Below, one piece after another: positions 21,411-26,479 of a DNA stretch of 64,000 nucleotides. Position 1 is the first letter of the stretch. Each line of letters opens with the position of its first letter. Position numbers and translations under genes: made by a program. The notes below the pieces were generated by a model. The model saw nothing but the letters and a program-made list of their open reading frames with translations, was not told where the DNA came from and made no database searches. The stretch comes from Dehalococcoidales bacterium. Lineage in GTDB: Bacteria; Chloroflexota; Dehalococcoidia; Dehalococcoidales; UBA5760. The stretch covers positions 1 through 64,000 of the forward strand of contig JAQUQE010000005.1 in assembly GCA_028716225.1 (NCBI GenBank). Direction: 5' to 3'.

Positions 21411-22241
21411 TTATAACACGATATTATCGATAAGTCTAGTTCCTCCGATTCTTACCGCCAGCGAGACCAGAACCGGCGGTTTAACCTCATCCAGCTCGTT
21501 CAGGGTATCAGTACCGGCTATAGAGACGTAATCAATAATGGCCAGCGGTTCTTTCTCAATCAGCGCTATCATCTCCCGCCTCAAGCGTCCGGCATCCGTC
21601 TCCCCCTCCCGCCATAGCCTTTGCGCCAGACAGAGCGCCCGGTAGAGTACCAGCGCCGCCCTGCGCTCAGCAGGGTTAAGGTAGATATTACGGCTGCTCA
21701 TCGCCAGCCCATCCGGTTCACGCACGGTAGGCAAGGTAGCGACTTCCAGATCCATATTTAGATCAGCCACCATCTTTTTAATCACCGCCGCCTGCTGAGC
21801 ATCTTTCTGTCCGAAATAAGCTCGAGTCGGCCGGACGATATTAAAAAGCTTGGCCACTACGGTAGCAACACCCCTGAAGTGACCGGGGCGGCAGGCTCCC
21901 TCCAGACGCTCGGTTATTTTGCCACCATCCACATAGACACCGAACCGCCCGGGGTACATCTCGGCAGCCGAGGGCATAAAGACGGCATCAACCGCCTCCT
22001 CTGCCAGCAGAGCCAGGTCACGCTCGATATCACGGGGATAGCTGGCAAGGTCCTCCTGCGGGCCGAACTGCGTCGGGTTAACAAATATACTGACCACCAC
22101 CGACCGGTTTTCCGCCCTGGCCCCCCTCACCAGAGAGAGATGACCCTCGTGAAGATAGCCCATCGTAGGCACGAAGCCGACCGGTTCGGCAAGCTCCCGC
22201 CTCAGACACCTCATCTCGGCTATTTTTTCGACGACCCGCAC
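21411..22241 (-). CDS. panC: Pantoate--beta-alanine ligase
   Basis: A 276-residue protein. It joins pantoate and beta-alanine with ATP to make pantothenate. Motifs are FVPTMGYLHEGHLSLV (HxGH, residues 23-38), FVNPTQF, PSAAEMYP, the RPTRAYFGQKDAQQ segment (KDxQQ), and the SSRNIYLN signature. Length is typical. It is the last gene of the DUF2520-panD-panB-panC operon and ends 50 bases from the convergent terminator. Confidence 0.95.
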   Translation of the reverse strand: MRVVEKIAEMRCLRRELAEPVGFVPTMGYLHEGHLSLVRGARAENRSVVVSIFVNPTQFGPQEDLASYPRDIERDLALLAEEAVDAVFMPSAAEMYPGRFGVYVDGGKITERLEGACRPGHFRGVATVVAKLFNIVRPTRAYFGQKDAQQAAVIKKMVADLNMDLEVATLPTVREPDGLAMSSRNIYLNPAERRAALVLYRALCLAQRLWREGETDAGRLRREMIALIEKEPLAIIDYVSIAGTDTLNELDEVKPPVLVSLAVRIGGTRLIDNIVL

Positions 22242-22273: not shown

Positions 22274-23101
22274 CTATTTGCTCAGTCTGTCTAGTATGCT
22301 CTCGTCCATCGAGAAGCTCTGCTGATCGGTGGGGAAGAGGCCATCCTTTACCTCTCTAACATACTCGGTGATGGCAGCCCGGCTCGCCTCGGCTAATTTA
22401 GCATACTGTTTGGCATGCCGGGGTACGAAATCGGTAAACAAACCCAGAATATCGCTGATGACCTGGACCTGGCCGTCACAGCCGGCGCCAGCCCCTATGC
22501 CAATGGTAGGAATACTGATGCTCCGGGTAATCAGCGCCGCCAATGGAGCGGGTACCGTTTCCAGGACAACGGCAAAGGCGCCTGCCTGATCCAGGGCACG
22601 GGCGTCCTCAATCAGCCTGGCAGCGGCCTCGTCACTCTTGCCCTGTACCTTAAAACCACCCAGTTGATTGATCGACTGGGGTGTCAGGCCGATGTGTCCC
22701 ATCACCGGTATCCCGCAATTAACGATGCTCCTTACCGTCTCCGCCATATGTACACCGCCCTCGAGCTTAACCGCCTGGGCGCCAGCCTCCTGAATAAAGC
22801 GGGCGGCGTTACGCTGGGCATCGGTAACATTAGCATAGGTCATAAACGGCAAATCACCGATTACCAAAGTGCGGCTGGAGCCTCTGACCACAGCCCTGGT
22901 ATGGTGCAGCATTTCATCCATCGTCACCGGTATCGTCGACTGATAACCCAGGACCACCATTCCCAGGCTATCCCCGACCAGAGTGAGCGGCACTCCCACC
23001 TCATCGATGATGCCGGCCATAACATAATCATAGGCGGTCAGCATAGCGATTTTCTCGCCCTTCCGCTTCATTTCCTTTATTTCGTTAATGGAAATCCGCA
23101 C
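22274..23101 (-). CDS. panB: 3-methyl-2-oxobutanoate hydroxymethyltransferase
   Basis: A 275-residue TIM-barrel enzyme. It adds a hydroxymethyl group from 5,10-methylene-THF to ketoisovalerate. Visible are MLTAYDYVMA, LVGDSLGMVVLGYQST, GDLPFMTY, KLEGGV, GHIGLTPQS and IGIGAGAGCDGQV with the metal and substrate residues. A GGAGAGGAG ribosome site precedes the ATG. It lies 33 bases upstream of panC. Use of methylene-THF ties it to the one-carbon pool that the MetV/MetH-type genes in the window also serve. Confidence 0.95.
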   Translation of the reverse strand: MRISINEIKEMKRKGEKIAMLTAYDYVMAGIIDEVGVPLTLVGDSLGMVVLGYQSTIPVTMDEMLHHTRAVVRGSSRTLVIGDLPFMTYANVTDAQRNAARFIQEAGAQAVKLEGGVHMAETVRSIVNCGIPVMGHIGLTPQSINQLGGFKVQGKSDEAAARLIEDARALDQAGAFAVVLETVPAPLAALITRSISIPTIGIGAGAGCDGQVQVISDILGLFTDFVPRHAKQYAKLAEASRAAITEYVREVKDGLFPTDQQSFSMDESILDRLSK

Positions 23102-23150: not shown

Positions 23151-23525
23151 TCAGTATAGGAAAGGCGCAACCGCCTGTTTACTTTTAACGATGACATTTT
23201 GCGCATCAACATAGACCAGTGTAGGCACCAGATTAAGCGCCTCATCATCACTAAGATAGCAGTAGGTAAGGATGATAACCTTGTCACCCTTAGCCACCAT
23301 CCTTGCCGCAGCACCGTTTAAGCAGATTTCACCGCTTTCATCCCCCTCGATAGCATAGGTAGTGAAACGGGCGCCGTTATTGATGTCCAGAACTTCCACC
23401 TGCTCGTAGGGGAGAATATCGGCCGACTGCATCAGATGCCTGCCAATAGTAATACTGCCTTCATAATCGATATTGCATTGAGTAACCCGGGCCCGGTGGA
23501 TTTTACTCTTCAGCATTTTTCTCAT
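23151..23525 (-). CDS. panD: Aspartate 1-decarboxylase
   Basis: A 124-residue pyruvoyl enzyme. It self-cleaves at the Gly-Ser pair in YEGSITI (near residue 22-23), forming the pyruvoyl group that makes beta-alanine from Asp. The SKIHRARVT start, GARFTTYAIEG and LNGAAARMVAKGDKVIIL are typical. I chose the ATG at 23525 because GGGGAGG lies about 7 bases before it; a second ATG three codons on is possible. Operon position between the DUF2520 and panB genes. Confidence 0.92.
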   Translation of the reverse strand: MRKMLKSKIHRARVTQCNIDYEGSITIGRHLMQSADILPYEQVEVLDINNGARFTTYAIEGDESGEICLNGAAARMVAKGDKVIILTYCYLSDDEALNLVPTLVYVDAQNVIVKSKQAVAPFLY

Positions 23526-23527
23526 TA

Positions 23528-24421
23528 TTATCTTCCTCCCCTAGCTTCGGTAAACTTCTCTTTCGTACCTTTCAGCACCGTCTCCAGTTCCTTCGCCCGC
23601 CGTCCGTCTATCTTTCCCTTATCCAGGGCAACCGGAATGGTCTTCAAGCCCAGTTCCCGGTAGGTAGAAAGCAGGTCGGGGGCCGCCTCTTTAAGGGCAT
23701 CGAGGTGCTTGCTGACTGTCTTGATATCTCCCCTGGCGATTGGGCCGGTAAGACAGCCGGGAATGCCGACGGTCTCAATATTACGGATGGTACCCCGTAT
23801 CAACGGCAGCAATGCCCGGACAGCCTGCTGCCGCGGGATTCCAAAGGTCTGCCACAAATCAGCAGCCAGCTTCTCCAGGGTGACCAGATAGTTGCAGGCA
23901 AATACTGCCGAGGCATGATAGACCACACGGGCTGCTGCCGTCAGCTCAATCCAGTGAGCATCGAGAGCGGCAGTGATAGCCTTAAGTGTTTCCAGCAAGG
24001 GAGGCTCAGCCTCGATGGTGACGGTAGAGCCGGGAATATTCTCAAGAGCCCTTTCCACACTGGCAAAGGACTGCAGGGGATGAAAGACACCGGTACTGGC
24101 TCCCGCCTTACCGGCCGGTGCCAGAATATCAGTCGATTCGGACCCACAGCAGTGAATCACCCCCTGCCCGCGACGCCACTTTACCTGCTCTGCCACGGAG
24201 GCGATGGCATCATCGGGGGTGGTGATGAAAACAAGTTCAGCAGCATCAGCCACTTCCTGACTGCTGCTCATCACCGCACATCCCTTGACTCTTTCCGCCA
24301 GTTTTCCGGCTGAAGACCGGCTCCGGCTGGACACGGCTACTACCGGGTAGCCCTTGCTGTTTAGCCTAACTGCCAGGGCAGTCCCTACCGTCCCCGCCCC
24401 GATAAATCCAAGATCCGGCAT
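23528..24421 (-). CDS. Rossmann-fold DUF2520 protein, candidate ketopantoate reductase
   Basis: A 297-residue protein. The N-terminal dinucleotide motif is GFIGAGTVGTALAVRL (residues 5-20), with FITTPDDAIASVAEQ following. The C-terminal part (about residues 165-290) is the DUF2520 helical domain, related to 6-phosphogluconate-dehydrogenase-like folds. Classical PanE is not visible in the operon, and this gene is the first one in it, so it probably supplies the missing ketopantoate reductase activity. That is inference from context, not from a specific motif. Confidence 0.75.
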   Translation of the reverse strand: MPDLGFIGAGTVGTALAVRLNSKGYPVVAVSSRSRSSAGKLAERVKGCAVMSSSQEVADAAELVFITTPDDAIASVAEQVKWRRGQGVIHCCGSESTDILAPAGKAGASTGVFHPLQSFASVERALENIPGSTVTIEAEPPLLETLKAITAALDAHWIELTAAARVVYHASAVFACNYLVTLEKLAADLWQTFGIPRQQAVRALLPLIRGTIRNIETVGIPGCLTGPIARGDIKTVSKHLDALKEAAPDLLSTYRELGLKTIPVALDKGKIDGRRAKELETVLKGTKEKFTEARGGR

Positions 24422-24445
24422 AGCTGCTCTCTCCTCGGACCCAAA

Positions 24446-24483
24446 TAAAAATGCCTCCTCCGCCTTTTAACAGAGAAGGCATT
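24446..24483 (-). terminator. Intrinsic terminator in the pan operon leader
   Basis: On the minus strand AATGCCTTCTC and GAGGAGGCATT form an 11-bp stem (one G-U) followed by TTTTATTT. It lies between the Pan-like RNA and the DUF2520 start, so it can act as an attenuator. Confidence 0.65.
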
Positions 24484-24505
24484 AAACAGAAATCCTGATT
24501 TTTCT

Positions 24506-24590
24506 GCCGTCTCGGTCATAACAGATCCAAGCGACTAAAATGCTCATCCTTATTAATCTACTGAGCTCACCGCCGCCCAGGTCGGTGGCT
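24506..24590 (-). ncRNA. Pan-like RNA: two tandem hairpins with bulged A
   Basis: Read on the minus strand, hairpin 1 (24590-24564) pairs AGCCACCG with CGGTGAGCT, leaving one bulged A on the 3' side (at 24567). Hairpin 2 (24535-24506) pairs GTCGCTTGG with CCGAGACGGC with a G-T and again a single bulged A (24510). Both loops are 10-11 bases. Tandem stem-loops with bulged A residues in front of panB/C/D genes are the published hallmark of the Pan RNA motif, reported from Chloroflexota and Firmicutes. The match here is by eye. Confidence 0.6.
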
Positions 24591-24609
24591 GGCAACTACC
24601 ACAAACCCA

Positions 24610-24638
24610 AGTATAGAAAACCGGACGGATTTCGTCAA
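24610..24638 (-). promoter_or_regulatory. Sigma70 promoter of the pan operon
   Basis: TTGACG (-35, 24638-24633) and TATACT (-10, 24615-24610) are separated by 17 bases on the minus strand. Transcription would start near 24603 and give a 180-base leader containing the Pan-like RNA and the attenuator hairpin. Confidence 0.75.
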
Positions 24639-24679
24639 GTCCGGTACACTGCCGCCGGGGGAATAAGCCAGGTCAGTTG

Positions 24680-26007: not shown

Positions 26008-26083
<76 letters not shown>

Positions 26084-26094
26084 CTACATAGCGG

Positions 26095-26166
26095 GCGGAA
26101 GTGGCTCAGCGGTAGAGCATCTCCTTGCCAAGGAGAGGATCGCGAGTTCGAATCTCGTCTTCCGCT
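26095..26166 (+). tRNA. tRNA-Gly (GCC)
   Basis: A 72-nt tRNA with acceptor GCGGAAG / CTTCCGC, anticodon stem CTCCT / AGGAG and loop TGCCA (anticodon GCC), and T loop TTCGAAT. CCA is not encoded, unlike its neighbours, and must be added after transcription. Confidence 0.92.
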
Positions 26167-26169
26167 TGT

Positions 26170-26258
26170 GCCGAAGTGGCGGAAGAGGTAGACGCGACAG
26201 TCTCAAAAACTGTTGGGGAGCAATCCCCGTGTCGGTTCGAGTCCGACCTTCGGCACCA
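26170..26258 (+). tRNA. tRNA-Leu (CAA)
   Basis: An 89-nt class II tRNA with acceptor GCCGAAG / CTTCGGC, anticodon arm ACAGT CTCAAAA ACTGT (anticodon CAA), a long variable arm GGGGAGCAATCCCC, TTCGAGT T loop and encoded CCA. It starts 3 bases after tRNA-Gly. Confidence 0.93.
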
Positions 26259-26306
26259 TTAGGGTTGCTGAAGGGCGAAACGACAGCTTGAGGCCTGATT
26301 TTATGC

Positions 26307-26312
26307 TATAAT
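26307..26312 (+). promoter_or_regulatory. Extended -10 promoter before tRNA-Gln
   Basis: TGCTATAAT, an extended -10 box with TATAAT, lies 8 bases before tRNA-Gln. No good -35 element is visible. It suggests separate transcription of the last two tRNAs. Confidence 0.5.
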
Positions 26313-26320
26313 AATCCCGT

Positions 26321-26394
26321 TGCCGAGTTGTGTAGCGGTAGCACGGAGGACTTTGAATCCTTTAGCCCTGGTTCGAATCCAGGCTCGGCAGCCA
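26321..26394 (+). tRNA. tRNA-Gln (TTG)
   Basis: A 74-nt tRNA with acceptor TGCCGAG / CTCGGCA, anticodon loop CTTTGAA (anticodon TTG), T loop TTCGAAT, discriminator G and encoded CCA. Confidence 0.93.
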
Positions 26395-26403
26395 CGATAG
26401 CAA

Positions 26404-26479
26404 TCCCCGGTAGCTCAATCGGTAGAGCGGGCGGCTGTTAACCGCTAGGTTCAAGGTTCGAGTCCTTGCCGGGGAGCCA
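26404..26479 (+). tRNA. tRNA-Asn (GTT)
   Basis: A 76-nt tRNA with acceptor TCCCCGG / CCGGGGA, anticodon stem GCGGC ... with loop TGTTAA (anticodon GTT), T loop TTCGAGT, discriminator G and encoded CCA. Confidence 0.93.

Follow-up and report, generated by a model that had tools for sequence, protein, structure and literature searches.

Tandem stems with two bulged A residues per stem, located upstream of panB/panC/panD operons, were described in 2010 as the pan motif, and the main text of that description gives no terminator, antiterminator or mechanism (PMC2864571). Other than this description, only annotation-level mentions of the pan RNA were found in the literature, and a 2024 study of how B. 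subtilis makes CoA mentions no leader, riboswitch or terminator. Within the accessible literature, pan has been an orphan since 2010, a known family without a known ligand or mechanism.

Leaders of the trp and pyr type and terminator-type riboswitches are attenuators in which an antiterminator and a terminator are mutually exclusive, and RNAs of the guanidine-II class (mini-ykkC) are characterized by conserved ACGR loops. The pan RNA resembles guanidine-II in having two small tandem hairpins as the sensor, but the two are unrelated in sequence and structure, the pan stems carry bulged A residues instead of ACGR loops, and Rfam reports only pan at the locus described here.

The window, which is the whole stretch of 64,000 nucleotides that was analyzed, belongs to a Dehalococcoidales MAG (Chloroflexota) of 2.64 Mb in 156 contigs. 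A pan leader followed by a pantothenate operon with the gene order panG-like, panD, panB, panC is located on its minus strand, with the following features:

24610-24638, minus strand: promoter-like site for the leader, TTGACG-17-TATACT, 10 of 12 consensus matches
24564-24590, minus strand: pan RNA stem 1, with one bulged A on its 5' side and another on its 3' side (Rfam RF01749 alignment)
24506-24535, minus strand: pan RNA stem 2, with a bulged A on both sides (Rfam RF01749 alignment)
24505-24517, minus strand: 3' arm of stem 2, GACCGAGACGGCA, which can pair with the terminator 5' arm and is proposed as the first strand of an antiterminator
24450-24483, minus strand: intrinsic terminator hairpin (15 pairs, -21.1 kcal/mol), then a TTTATTTG tail
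24469-24481, minus strand: terminator 5' arm, TGCCTTCTCTGTT, proposed from its complementarity and its conserved core in relatives as the second strand of the antiterminator
24429-24436, minus strand: Shine-Dalgarno-like GAGGAGAG of the first gene (panG-like), read directly from the sequence
23528-24421, minus strand: panG-like gene encoding a Rossmann and DUF2520 protein, putative ketopantoate reductase (Pfam PF10728, 122.8 bits, and PF10727)
23151-23525, minus strand: panD, aspartate 1-decarboxylase (Pfam PF02261, 6.5e-47)
22274-23101, minus strand: panB, ketopantoate hydroxymethyltransferase (Pfam PF02548, 2e-115)
21411-22241, minus strand: panC, pantoate-beta-alanine ligase (Pfam PF02569, 1.5e-107)

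The Rfam model scan of the whole window identified a match to pan (RF01749) at positions 24590-24503 of the minus strand, which scored 38.2 bits (gathering score, 36.2) with a local E of 2.5e-5. This was the only pan match above the score in the genome. The window leader shares with RF01749 the score above the gathering threshold, the tandem arrangement, the two bulged A residues in each stem and the position upstream of a panB/panC/panD operon, and is a member of this known orphan RNA family. The operon differs from the published pan loci in that its first gene is panG-like; the assignment of this gene as a ketopantoate reductase is putative, and panG-like genes also occupy the pan operons of relatives, in which genes of the same pathway lie downstream of the pan RNA.

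A preliminary description, made from the sequence alone, had proposed a tandem Pan-like RNA lying after a promoter and before an intrinsic terminator at the head of the pantothenate operon, and all of these elements are present. It had also given each stem one bulged A, on the 3' side, and a loop of 10-11 bases. The 3'-side bulge is present, but the covariance alignment gives two bulges per stem, one on each side (stem 1, AGC-CACCG-[A]-CC ... GG-CGGUG-[A]-GCU; stem 2, UCG-CUUGG-[A]-UC ... GA-CCGAG-[A]-CGG), and the loops are about 5-8 nt once the short inner helix is counted as paired; the larger loop had resulted from counting this helix as loop and seeing only the 3' bulge.

The fold of the leader was better than all but one of 200 dinucleotide shuffles (z -3.2). 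Promoter-like sites numbered four in the scanned 1.4 kb, compared with 0.9 in shuffles, and the same TTGACG...TATACT layout precedes the pan RNA at two loci of the same genus (L013 and L031). Three other possibilities for the leader were discarded: a second genomic pan copy, as the only other match, of 15.3 bits on contig C4, was at the level of chance; a match to the Ref55 sRNA over the terminator, which was far below the Ref55 gathering score and was taken as chance; and a phage origin, as the leader had no match in phage records and the pattern matches in viral contigs look like chance coding ones. Elsewhere in the genome (G000:C8:69755-70528), a different contig carries a further panB that is more divergent (48% identical), and the stem-2 motif of pan was absent from the stretch taken there. 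Five tRNA genes are clustered near the pan operon on the plus strand (window positions 26008-26476), and a tRNA cluster also lies near the pan operon of the same-genus locus L041.

Conservation was examined in 113 distinct leaders of the phylum, drawn from relatives, a phylum sample and named contigs and filtered at 85% ungapped identity only, so that they are not fully independent. A pan match at E <= 0.1 was present in 46 of 61 relatives, in 27 of them above the cut-off, and in the phylum sample 27 of 301 genomes had a match at E <= 0.02. Stem 2 is near-invariant across 112-113 leaders (CGCUUGGAUC ... GACCGAGACGG), with A at both bulges in 112 of 112 and an invariant U-G wobble within the stem; its 5' arm is invariant although it has no part in the proposed antiterminator. 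Stem 1 changes in pairs, for example from A-U to G-C and from C-G to U-A at neighbouring pairs. When A was required at the two bulges, a stem-1 descriptor matched 96 of the 113 leaders and about 13% of shuffles, whereas with any other pair of bulge letters it matched at most 16 of the 113. The bulged A residues, whose loss in relatives would have spoken against the preliminary description, are retained in both stems. A few leaders, namely L041/L142 (G004, same genus), L137 and L150, seem to lack a normal stem 1 and appear to be natural single-hairpin variants; in L041, stem 2 directly follows a promoter-like site and stem 1 seems to have been lost. These variants could show whether the tandem arrangement is needed.

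A terminator-like hairpin follows stem 2 in 112 of the 113 leaders, starting 7-32 nt downstream, and under a strict criterion a terminator was found in 106 of 113 real leaders and in 14 of 226 shuffled regions. The U-tract is poor in three leaders (L003, L005 and L129). The GCC-UUCUCGG-like 5' arm of the terminator shows complementarity to CCGAGA-C-GGC, the stem-2 3' arm, and a CC-Y-UCUCGG-like core is conserved in the terminator 5' arm of relatives. In the window, pairing of the two arms was computed at -13.9 kcal/mol, a value reached by none of 300 shuffled arms. Over the leaders, the mean RNAduplex energy was -13.4 kcal/mol with the consensus stem-2 arm and -12.7 kcal/mol with each leader's own arm, compared with -8.1 kcal/mol when 314 other terminators from these contigs were used and -8.4 kcal/mol when each hairpin's 3' arm was used instead; -12 kcal/mol was reached by 71% of the pan terminators and 10% of the controls. 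When one leader was taken from each of 43 families, the mean was -12.5 kcal/mol; shuffled arms and 3' arms each gave -8.0 kcal/mol (Wilcoxon, 2e-12 and 6e-8, respectively). In silico, the alternative pairing that would exclude the terminator thus stood far above three controls. Complementarity to stem 2 is weak in four leaders (L042, L019, L012 and L148).

The antiterminator cannot be proved by covariation because the stem-2 arm hardly varies; in a permutation test on the arms that do vary, 29 of 300 permutations were as good as the real pairing, which is not significant. The mean energies were -14.0 kcal/mol for stem 2, -13.4 kcal/mol for the antiterminator and -19.7 kcal/mol for the terminator. 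In the window, the minimum free energy (MFE) structure contains the antiterminator until the 3' arm of the terminator is made, and stem 2 plus the terminator thereafter. In 76% of the leaders, stem 2 and not the antiterminator is the MFE structure before the terminator is complete, and the energies therefore do not fix the default state of the unliganded leader.

The pan RNA is probably a transcription attenuator of the panG-like, panD, panB, panC operon, a model that draws on the observed family membership, terminator, competing complementarity, conservation and similar energies. Transcription would start just downstream of the promoter-like site, and stems 1 and 2 would fold while the RNA is being made. 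The 3' arm of stem 2, CCGAGACGGCA, would then either remain part of stem 2 or bind the terminator 5' arm (UGCCUUCUCUG..). In the ON state, these two arms would form the antiterminator, the terminator would be blocked and the operon would be read; in the OFF state, stem 2 would be held, the terminator would form and transcription would end ahead of the first gene. The two states are mutually exclusive because both need the terminator 5' arm and the stem-2 3' arm. A pathway product, or a protein reporting it, would presumably bind the tandem stems at the bulged A residues and hold stem 2, and the expected outcome would be end-product repression. The invariance of the stem-2 5' arm, outside the antiterminator, points to stem 2 as the recognized state, and the invariant U-G wobble could weaken this stem so far that the antiterminator can win. 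We infer that the competition operates in the cell and that the bound state is OFF.

As in attenuators of the trp/pyr type, the terminator 5' arm can pair with either of two partners at similar strength; unlike in those attenuators, the element proposed to be recognized, stem 2, is itself the competing hairpin. What is new, and well supported, is this wiring, that is, which strand pairs with which, which was not found spelled out in the accessible literature. The preliminary description had suggested that the leader may decide read-through, and the comparison of the leaders supports this; it was right about what the leader is and, as far as the comparison goes, right in good part about how it works.

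The same attenuator could be operated in different ways. There is about an even chance that an RNA-binding protein, which may be dimeric, recognizes the pan stems; this protein would sense CoA or pantothenate status or be an autogenously acting enzyme of the pathway. Two small hairpins with bulged A residues suit a protein site, but we know of no protein that reads pan stems, and no regulator gene was found within the pan operon of the window or those of relatives. The 2010 description takes the simple stems and their dimeric arrangement as a hint at a dimeric protein-binding motif (PMC2864571). Direct binding of a small molecule of the pantothenate/CoA pathway by the stems, as in a riboswitch, is a serious possibility, to which we assign slightly less than an even chance: stem 2 is near-invariant, including the unpaired A on each side and the U-G wobble, and strictly one pathway is controlled in nearly all loci, but the structure is small and simple and no ligand is reported in the accessible literature. 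The guanidine-II class, whose simple tandem hairpins bind a metabolite directly, counts against the need for a protein. The complementarity might also be inherited without any switch, if the terminator arose from a duplicated pan hairpin and its arms resemble stem 2 for that reason. Although the 3' arm of the terminator (CCGAGAAGG / CCGAGAGGG) does resemble the 3' arm of stem 2 (CCGAGACGG), and the leaders have a common ancestry and do not count as independent, such an origin without a switch is improbable, as complementarity is kept over 43 families and several classes despite changed terminator sequences (for example GAGCCTTTCGGTC in L147, ACCCTCTCGGT in L130 and AGCCCTCCCGGTC in L136), and the inner 5' arm of the terminator is constant while loops and outer arms vary.

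It is also unlikely, given that 112 of the 113 Chloroflexota leaders have a terminator, that the leader acts on translation, either by pairing of the stem-2 5' arm with the Shine-Dalgarno region or by placement of pan at the ribosome-binding site as in Firmicutes. The MFE structure of the window pairs CUUGGAUC with GGGUCCGAG around the Shine-Dalgarno sequence; sequestration by the stem-2 5' arm was rejected, as the complement is lost, by eye, in the same-genus loci L013 and L031. The Firmicutes comparison consisted of records from Listeria (L293:1376-1462, panBCD, 63.1 bits) and an Enterococcus faecium plasmid (L292:1535-1616, DUF2520-panBCD, 41.7 bits). In both, the RNA belongs to the same Rfam family and heads a pantothenate operon, as in the window, but in contrast to the Chloroflexota leaders there is no terminator before the start codon, and the motif ends 11 nt (Listeria, before panB) or about 27 nt (Enterococcus) upstream of it, which suggests a translational platform near the ribosome-binding site. 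Judged by these sequences, the expression platform of the same pan motif differs between the phyla. The one leader of the 113 for which no terminator was found, L144 (G242:C16), comes from another Chloroflexota class and has the ATG of a panG-like gene directly after stem 2, within a few bases of it; it is possibly a translational variant inside the phylum.

The genes under pan RNA control in relatives include some that are not recognized pantothenate genes. A gene encoding an HPS-RraA fusion, in which a hexulose-6-phosphate synthase (HPS) is joined to an RraA aldolase-like part (OMPdecase/HUMPS plus Aldolase/RraA), lies under a pan RNA in five relatives (L311, G370:C13; L314, G401:C55; L315, G406:C1; L312/L313, G044:C20 and C52; L317, G112:C8). 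The pan-RNA loci of G370, G401 and G406 contain panG-like, panD and panC together with the HPS-RraA gene and lack panB, the panC of G370 being divergent. The HPS-RraA gene stands alone in G112 and G044, with a pan RNA and a terminator of its own, and a second pan RNA heads panG-panD. Of the 121 genomes of the order, 98 have PanB (PF02548), as do 47 of the 48 good ones, and 4 have the fusion. PanB was missing from G112, which is 98% complete, and from G370, G401 and G406, which are 75-80% complete; G044 has it only as a divergent copy elsewhere. The five genomes with the fusion had no hexuloisomerase above the cut-off, and the HPS active-site stretch of the fusion, ADMKTMDAG, matches a solved HPS at every residue. 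These observations suggest that the HPS-RraA fusion is a candidate non-orthologous ketopantoate hydroxymethyltransferase replacing PanB, although the case is weaker in three of the five genomes because of MAG incompleteness.

Outside the order, a peptidase S58 hydrolase (PF03576) is encoded by the first gene of the pan-RNA operon at seven loci from several families (L152, L153, L156, L163, L166, L167 and L169), and the L167 operon contains S58, panB and panC, with no panD or panG match. Solved relatives of the S58 hydrolase include ThnT, L-aminopeptidase/D-esterase and nylon-oligomer hydrolases, and DmpA-like enzymes are also related to it. In pan operons it may release beta-alanine or cleave a pantetheine-like amide.

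A broader proposal, which we put forward tentatively and regard as rather unlikely as a whole, is that pan is a compact metabolite riboswitch for a compound of the pantothenate/CoA pathway, whose ligand-binding hairpin is itself the strand competitor and whose expression platform is an attenuator in Chloroflexota and the ribosome-binding site in Firmicutes. If the riboswitch reading is true, the regulon would reveal unrecognized genes of the pathway, among them the HPS-RraA fusion, which would form ketopantoate as a non-orthologous enzyme. With the strand pairing of the proposed switch made explicit, what the pan RNA senses becomes a question for a simple read-through assay, and the pan RNA may serve as a marker for unrecognized pantothenate genes, such as the candidate PanB replacement.
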